A stretch of DNA of 41,087 bases, taken from IMG/VR virus record IMGVR_UViG_3300044621_001647, positions 1 through 41,087 of that record; one strand, 5' to 3'. Positions 13,909 through 14,437 of the stretch are shown in pieces (within the stretch, counting starts at the first letter, position 1; each line of letters opens with the position of its first letter). A model generated the notes under the pieces. The model saw nothing but the letters and a program-made list of their open reading frames with translations, was not told the origin of the DNA and made no database searches. This stretch comes from a virus. A program made the position numbers and the translations under genes.

Positions 13909-14437
13909 GCCTGCGTTGTCCTGCCAAACCGAGCCGCGCCGTGCGCTGCCAGACCTTGCCAAGCCTTGCCTGCGTTGCCTTGTGCGGCCATGTCGTTCCC
14001 TGTAGGGCCTTGCCATGCCTGCGGTGCCAATAGGCGCCTCGCCAGAGCTCAACGCGCCCTGCCATGCCTGCGTTGCCGGAGCTTGGCTCGCCTCGCCTCG
14101 CGCAACCGTGCCTCACCAAGCCTGCGTTGCCGAACCCGGCCTTGAGTTGTCGCACCCATCCTGTCCAGGCCTGCGGTGCCGTGCCATGTACCGCCTAGTC
14201 GATCCTCGCCCTACCTGCTGCTCCTCGCCGCACCTTGCCGCGCCTCACCAGTCCCAACCGCTCCGCGCCTGCGATGCCAAGTCCCAACAGTCCAGAACGC
14301 GCCAAGCCTCGCCTGCGATGACCCGCCACCCCTTGCCGGGTCGGGCCGCGCCACGCCACGCCTGCGTTGTCAGGCCATGCCGCGCCACGCCTGGACGCTC
14401 CTCTCAATGCCACGCCTCGCCTGCGATGCCATGCCTA
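13909..14437. repeat. GCCNN pentanucleotide array with periodic GCCTGCGNT cores
   Basis: A gene-free 0.53-kb tract. Pentamers GCCNN (NNGGC on the transcribed minus strand) run in strict 5-nt phase. At each core, GCCTGCG followed by T, A or G and T, the phase drops by one. Clear cores begin at 13909, 13968, 14017, 14066, 14120, 14169, 14267, 14311, 14360 and 14419, with a degenerate one at 14213. Spacings are 59, 49, 49, 54, 49, 44, 54, 44, 49 and 59, all equal to 9+5n. The period is not a multiple of 3 and stops interrupt the frames, so it is not a protein repeat. Function unknown; it lies between two recombination-module genes. Confidence 0.9.

Follow-up and report, generated by a model that had tools for sequence, protein, structure and literature searches.

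The window, meaning the whole 41,087-nt stretch of viral DNA analysed here (IMG/VR record IMGVR_UViG_3300044621_001647), carries on its minus strand a short-repeat array and two neighbouring genes, which resemble the components of VIPR (Viral Interference Programmable Repeat), a class of systems reported in April 2026 (bioRxiv 2026.04.26.720920, PMC13142463). Listed in the sense direction, the features are as follows.

14976 to 15674, minus strand: vipr gene (232 aa, phrog_4652), RAMP/Cas7-like, predicted guide-RNA-binding protein
14443 to 14973, minus strand: vap-like accessory gene (176 aa, phrog_15946) of an array-linked family; AlphaFold2 model with pLDDT 91, weak winged-helix similarity to known structures at best
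13909 to 14437, minus strand: putative VIPR guide array, (NNGGY)n in sense, about ten guides, each with 7-10 NN pairs and closed by a 9-nt boundary
14419 to 14427, minus strand: putative boundary core, 5'-most in sense, perfect GCCTGCGNT on plus
14360 to 14368, minus strand: putative boundary core, perfect GCCTGCGNT on plus
14311 to 14319, minus strand: putative boundary core, perfect GCCTGCGNT on plus
14267 to 14275, minus strand: putative boundary core, perfect GCCTGCGNT on plus
14213 to 14221, minus strand: decayed putative boundary core, ACCTGCTGC on plus; intact in the near relative L024 (ATCGCAGGT in sense)
14169 to 14177, minus strand: putative boundary core, perfect GCCTGCGNT on plus
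14120 to 14128, minus strand: putative boundary core, perfect GCCTGCGNT on plus
14066 to 14074, minus strand: putative boundary core, perfect GCCTGCGNT on plus
14017 to 14025, minus strand: putative boundary core, perfect GCCTGCGNT on plus
13968 to 13976, minus strand: putative boundary core, perfect GCCTGCGNT on plus
13909 to 13917, minus strand: putative boundary core, 3'-most, AACGCAGGC in sense, perfect GCCTGCGNT on plus

The 529-bp array has a core at either end, and its cores are spaced 59, 49, 49, 54, 49, 44, 54, 44, 49 and 59 bp apart, every value equalling 9+5n, with each unit comprising 7-10 in-phase NNGGY pentamers plus two boundary steps. An earlier sequence-only reading of the same DNA had listed ten clear cores, a degenerate one at 14213 and this spacing rule, and all of these were reproduced at the same coordinates. 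The phase-aware score of the array was 112, compared with at most 15.5 across 1000 dinucleotide shuffles, which failed to reproduce the spacing, and at most 13.3 anywhere else in the window; Tandem Repeats Finder did not detect the repeat at 13909-14437. The same reading had described a GCCNN pentamer, of which the in-phase repetition holds, whereas the triplet proved to be mostly RCC (first letter mainly G or A) and of moderate fidelity, and the relevant strand is the minus one, which reads (GGY-NN)n in the orientation of the neighbouring genes.

The array starts directly 3' of the stop codon of the vap-like gene, next to which it had been placed correctly. On its other side, 22 nt separate it from the start codon at 13886, which opens a small ORF that is the downstream gene and overlaps the exonuclease ORF (13007-13768). 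Its non-coding status, also anticipated, is supported by stops in the frames, a unit length indivisible by 3 and its location after a stop codon and before the following gene, which rule it out as coding sequence; no conserved reading frame through the array was found in relatives.

Pattern scans recovered the same GCCNN rule at more than 160 viral loci, a count that is not a prevalence estimate because the core-based and core-free scans of viral contigs each favour their own search patterns. The two-core scan yielded, among the matches listed, true arrays spaced 39, 44, 49, 54, 59 and 64 bp, and the core-free scan, for (GCCNN)6GCC, identified the window-type core as one variant among several, since in other arrays the phase is broken by a bare GCCT step or by other 9-nt motifs, and some lack any phase break. 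Together, 199 non-redundant arrays comprise about 10,000 pentamers, with G, C and C at the three triplet positions in 84, 90 and 89% of cases and little base preference at the two variable positions; where the phase is broken, a 9-nt step is the commonest form. Adjacent NN pairs are almost independent in these arrays (mutual information 0.04 bits versus a bias of 0.017), indicating that the copies did not arise by simple duplication. L033, L117 and other matches of the first viral scan have 9-bp or 24-bp tandem units and were set aside as different repeats. A cellular repeat element was also rejected, as 84,980 bacterial and archaeal genomes (one per species) gave scattered single matches and only two true arrays (L176 and L198). 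The complete cassette of array, vipr and vap-like gene is present at L198 (positions 1-1271), on a contig binned as Acidobacteria that is either a prophage or a mis-binned phage.

Among cultured viruses, 33 records of Mycobacterium, Gordonia and Cylindrospermopsis phages contain 'hypothetical proteins' that correspond to Vipr or to the array itself. One of them, gp48 of Mycobacterium phage Donkeykong (L334, 2472-2858), spans a VIPR array, and comparable artefact genes are annotated in further cluster F phages, the annotation of Quico being blank over the array. In cluster F mycobacteriophages (L334-L348), the cassette lies in the immunity region between antirepressor and excisionase, near the region where Tweety and Che8 have a tetrapeptide (12-bp) repeat gene; the repeats of Tweety gp54 are a 12-bp protein-coding repeat and were dismissed as unrelated to the array. 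Other architectures include a 1.9-kb array with about 45 cores (L074, 3524-5443) on the 112-kb viral contig IMGVR 3300048999_000056, which also bears the arrays L018 and L029, with no vipr within the stretch examined at L074. At L224 (6934-7170), an apparent phage tRNA gene separates pentamer arrays. At L225 (minus strand, 1657-1941) and L205 (654-1199), conserved inserts, about 35-55 nt long and sometimes with hairpin-like halves, lie between arrays; they have no Rfam match and are therefore not a known hammerhead model.

An all-against-all comparison of ORFs near the arrays revealed two standout families, the third-ranked family occurring in 11 loci. The vipr family, represented in the window by the second gene from the array, was present in 83 of 161 loci at a median distance of 32 nt, and the vap-like family in 44 loci at a median of 15 nt; nearly all members of both lie on the GGY-NN strand, including 81 of the 83 vipr genes found by BLAST. 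With a profile, vipr was detected at 124 of 164 viral array loci, as opposed to 1 of 90 array-free viral loci, and 24 loci with interior arrays had no vipr in the DNA stretch examined. In cultured phages, BLAST searches with the array and with Vipr independently retrieved largely the same Mycobacterium and Gordonia phages, and in the related cyanophage KBS-S-2A, to whose TerL that of the window phage is 75% identical, array, vipr and vap-like gene are jointly missing. The family profile matched the solved structure 36pp, 'SUSP1 Vipr protein' (E=2.6e-34), and the AlphaFold2 model of Vipr (pLDDT 88) had Csm3/Cas7 RAMPs as its best Foldseek matches (prob 1.0). The partner of the array is the RAMP protein of 14976-15674, in place of the exonuclease, annealing and RHH proteins that had been put forward as binders.

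In homologous arrays of related phages, substitutions affect 20.7% of NN positions, compared with 2.7% of GCC and 2.2% of flanking positions, a rate of change roughly eightfold higher for the NN pairs than for the triplet. Part of this divergence may reflect whole-guide replacement, which is visible in unit-by-unit comparison with the relatives L024 and L049; with or without it, the free bases are the changing part of the array. Homologous arrays also differ by 5-nt indels, and array length ranges from 9 to more than 300 pentamers, as a selfish or slippage-driven satellite devoid of function might show. The preservation of GCC while NN changes and the tight linkage to vipr nevertheless leave such a satellite with a negligible probability.

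Across the survey, the gene upstream of the array on the GGY-NN strand is co-directional in 154 cases versus 35, and the array starts a median of about 10 nt past the stop codon, usually within about 20 nt. This placement would suit a structured non-coding RNA, or an mRNA 3'-end stabiliser or terminator between genes; however, the sense RNA of the window array folds no better than shuffles (z +1.5), an Rfam search with the array RNA gave no match, and the NN positions are unconstrained, making a structural role extremely unlikely.

The array is better understood by comparison with the VIPR class. According to its description (PMC13142463), VIPR systems are carried by phages and proviruses, two examples being those of Escherichia phage SUSP1 and of a Pseudomonas fulva prophage, and target competing elements; the Vipr protein is an early-branching RAMP with a single RRM core, and an accessory vap gene, of families vap1-6, adjoins vipr. 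The guide RNAs (vrRNAs), encoded in intergenic DNA of the vipr locus, consist of 9-16 repeats in which GGY and hypervariable NN motifs alternate, the NN pairs recognising DNA with a one-nucleotide skip, and the known vrRNAs each end in an invariant structured 3' tail (PMC13142463). The RNA is expressed and co-purifies with Vipr, gene silencing is reported, array architectures vary and include staggered arrays with overlapping vrRNAs, and the system, with its gapped code for reading DNA, has been proposed as the ancestor of CRISPR (PMC13142463). The expectation that no named family followed this rule has thus been overtaken.

The window shares with VIPR a Vipr RAMP gene, a putative accessory gene and an intergenic GGY/NN tandem-repeat RNA in a phage, with hypervariable NN and conserved GGY. 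Since the main sequence-level features, found independently here, fit (GGY motif, hypervariable NN pairs, RAMP gene, putative accessory gene and phage residence), the locus is almost certainly the VIPR system of a cyanosiphovirus, with vipr, a vap-like gene and an array of about ten guides, and it adds a cyanophage member to a class already described in 2026. VIPR membership is demonstrated for the window by protein family, fold, array grammar and linkage; the putative accessory gene is termed vap-like by adjacency and array linkage. The window differs in the arrangement of its putative guides, which follow one another head to tail within a single array of 529 bp, the 9-nt core (ANCGC-AGGC) breaking the phase from one guide to the next. 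Neither the array nor the sequence that follows it yielded a conserved structured 3' tail such as that of SUSP1, the 9-nt core occupying that place. This layout may correspond to the staggered arrays of overlapping vrRNAs mentioned for the class (PMC13142463).

Other guide systems share some of these properties. Class 1 CRISPR-Cas (Csm3/Cas7) has in common the RAMP fold, a filament on guide RNA, periodic interruption of pairing and a guide array, but the window has a single RAMP and neither CRISPR repeats nor cas1/cas2, and its period is 5 nt rather than 6 nt, with the 2-of-3 non-contiguous reading published for VIPR. CRISPR-Cas was rejected, as it requires identical repeats of about 23-50 nt, unique spacers and cas genes, whereas only the 9-nt core recurs here and a Pfam scan of ten window proteins found no cas families. 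TIGR-Tas combines a Nop-domain protein with units of about 36 nt. It resembles the window in that a compact array of guides borne by a phage accompanies a small protein that binds RNA, and was excluded because Pfam scans of the neighbouring genes returned no Pfam domain, Nop included.

What appears new here, besides the fast-changing NN pairs and a target match described below, is that the core acts as a guide boundary and follows Vipr phylogeny. The type of phase break tracks the Vipr tree (30 changes versus 56.9 when shuffled, 0/200), and 26 of 27 loci with a TGCGnT core fall in a single 49-row group of the tree that includes the window (SH-aLRT 100). In mycobacteriophage arrays, the NN pair directly following the 4-nt step hardly varies (AT or AC); in the Quico guide, every NN but this one fits the target. 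We infer that the 4-nt step and the next pentamer (GCCT-GCGNT on the plus strand) form the boundary, a guide being the in-phase run between boundaries. A more far-reaching possibility, which we hold only tentatively and consider rather unlikely, is that the 9-nt core is an undescribed guide-boundary code, in which a single long precursor would contain about ten tail-less guides and the 4-nt step with a clade-specific pentamer (ANCGC here, ATGGC in mycobacteriophages) would mark guide ends for the Vipr filament, replacing the structured 3' tail.

The array is very probably a guide-RNA bank by which the phage can probably recognise and silence rival phages; for the window phage we infer transcription, core processing, silencing and targets. 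The minus strand would be transcribed across vipr, the vap-like gene and the array, giving an RNA with about ten guides, in each of which the GGY triplets would be held by successive Vipr (RAMP) subunits while the NN pairs would read DNA non-contiguously, two bases being read and one skipped. The guide boundary or handle would be the 9-nt core (ANCGC-AGGC in sense), at which the pentamer phase drops by one; the resulting ribonucleoprotein would probably silence genes of competing phages, possibly assisted by the vap-like protein, which may be a DNA binder of the winged-helix type. The sequence-only reading was right about a built-up, modular, non-coding element; by homology the element is recognised as RNA by a protein, and it is specific to phages. 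The options of that reading (recombination substrate, decoy, expanding satellite) omitted guide RNA.

Among the window's own guides, one has a candidate target.

14222 to 14266, minus strand: putative guide; 18/18 positions of its 1-nt-skip pattern TCxGCxTTxGCxTCxAGxCAxGCxGC are matched by an SSB-like gene present in 47 contigs of uncultured phages

This guide gave 58 matches in total, and those in the 47 contigs fall in members of a single family that is similar to phage single-strand DNA-binding proteins and contains the motif DAAWLEAKAEG; the bases skipped are at codon wobble positions, where they are free to vary. Because the motif recurs in four more unrelated families and no second window guide matches the 47 contigs, the SSB-like gene is regarded as a candidate only. 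Exact 18-nt patterns of three other guides (units 14066, 13909 and 14360) had 3, 2 and 0 matches in viral contigs, a chance level, scattered in genes unrelated to each other; the guide from 13968 had 10 mixed matches, and the window guides found no convincing match in cyanophages KBS-S-2A, S-H1 and Cy-LDV1.

At the family level, targets were sought with the arrays of cultured cluster F mycobacteriophages. One guide from Quico agrees at 18/18 with the tape-measure genes of rivals Che8 and Wachhund, with the 1-nt skip on the codon wobble base (E=8e-7 for 200 kb, or about 1e-4 once 176 tests are allowed for), as opposed to 13/18 in Quico's own tape-measure allele. By megablast against cultured phages, the targeted allele occurs in Che8, Squirty, Wachhund and Minnie, none of which is among the Vipr carriers recovered by BLAST. 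With a 2-nt skip, the same guide matches Tweety and Fruitloop at 17/18 (E=5e-5), which is probably chance; these Quico (L335) matches lie at about 17.9 kb of L350/L421 (Tweety, Fruitloop), in the minor tail gene region. A general test of the skip rule on local loci showed a skip-1 excess, inflated by codon periodicity.

The Quico match also bears on whether the array could be bound, as DNA or RNA, by a protein that forms rings or filaments (TRAP-like, or an annealing protein of the RecT/Red-beta type), acting as a regulatory or recombination site and not as a guide. The RNA targets of TRAP are (KAGNN)11, likewise a fixed triplet with two free bases read by repeated protein subunits at a 5-nt period, and the window contains Sak-like annealing, exonuclease and RusA genes. 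The triplet here is a different one, however, no TRAP homologue is present, and the linked family is a RAMP, neither TRAP nor an annealing protein; the free bases carry information, being hypervariable relative to the flanks, which a passive spacer would not need, and one NN set perfectly matches a gene of a rival phage. We therefore consider passive binding very improbable, and the guide-RNA bank remains the preferred reading.

The window thus provides a cyanophage VIPR member whose guides, delimited by a simple sequence rule, can be read directly from the sequence, and the survey adds more than 160 environmental viral loci and 33 cultured-phage records. The pairing of Quico with Che8 or Wachhund in a laboratory M. 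smegmatis strain makes the claim of inter-phage silencing directly testable. Elsewhere in the window, a serine recombinase is encoded at 17955-19376, the Sak-like annealing protein at 20093-20836 and a phage-encoded sigma-70-like factor at 22804-23790, one such factor being annotated in KBS-S-2A too. Two tandem copies of a 171-bp unit (30127-30475) lie inside the large tail-region ORF 29630-32236, and a 10-bp tandem repeat (GATCTGAACC, 5.4 copies) at 17066-17119 lies just upstream of ORF 16449-17057.
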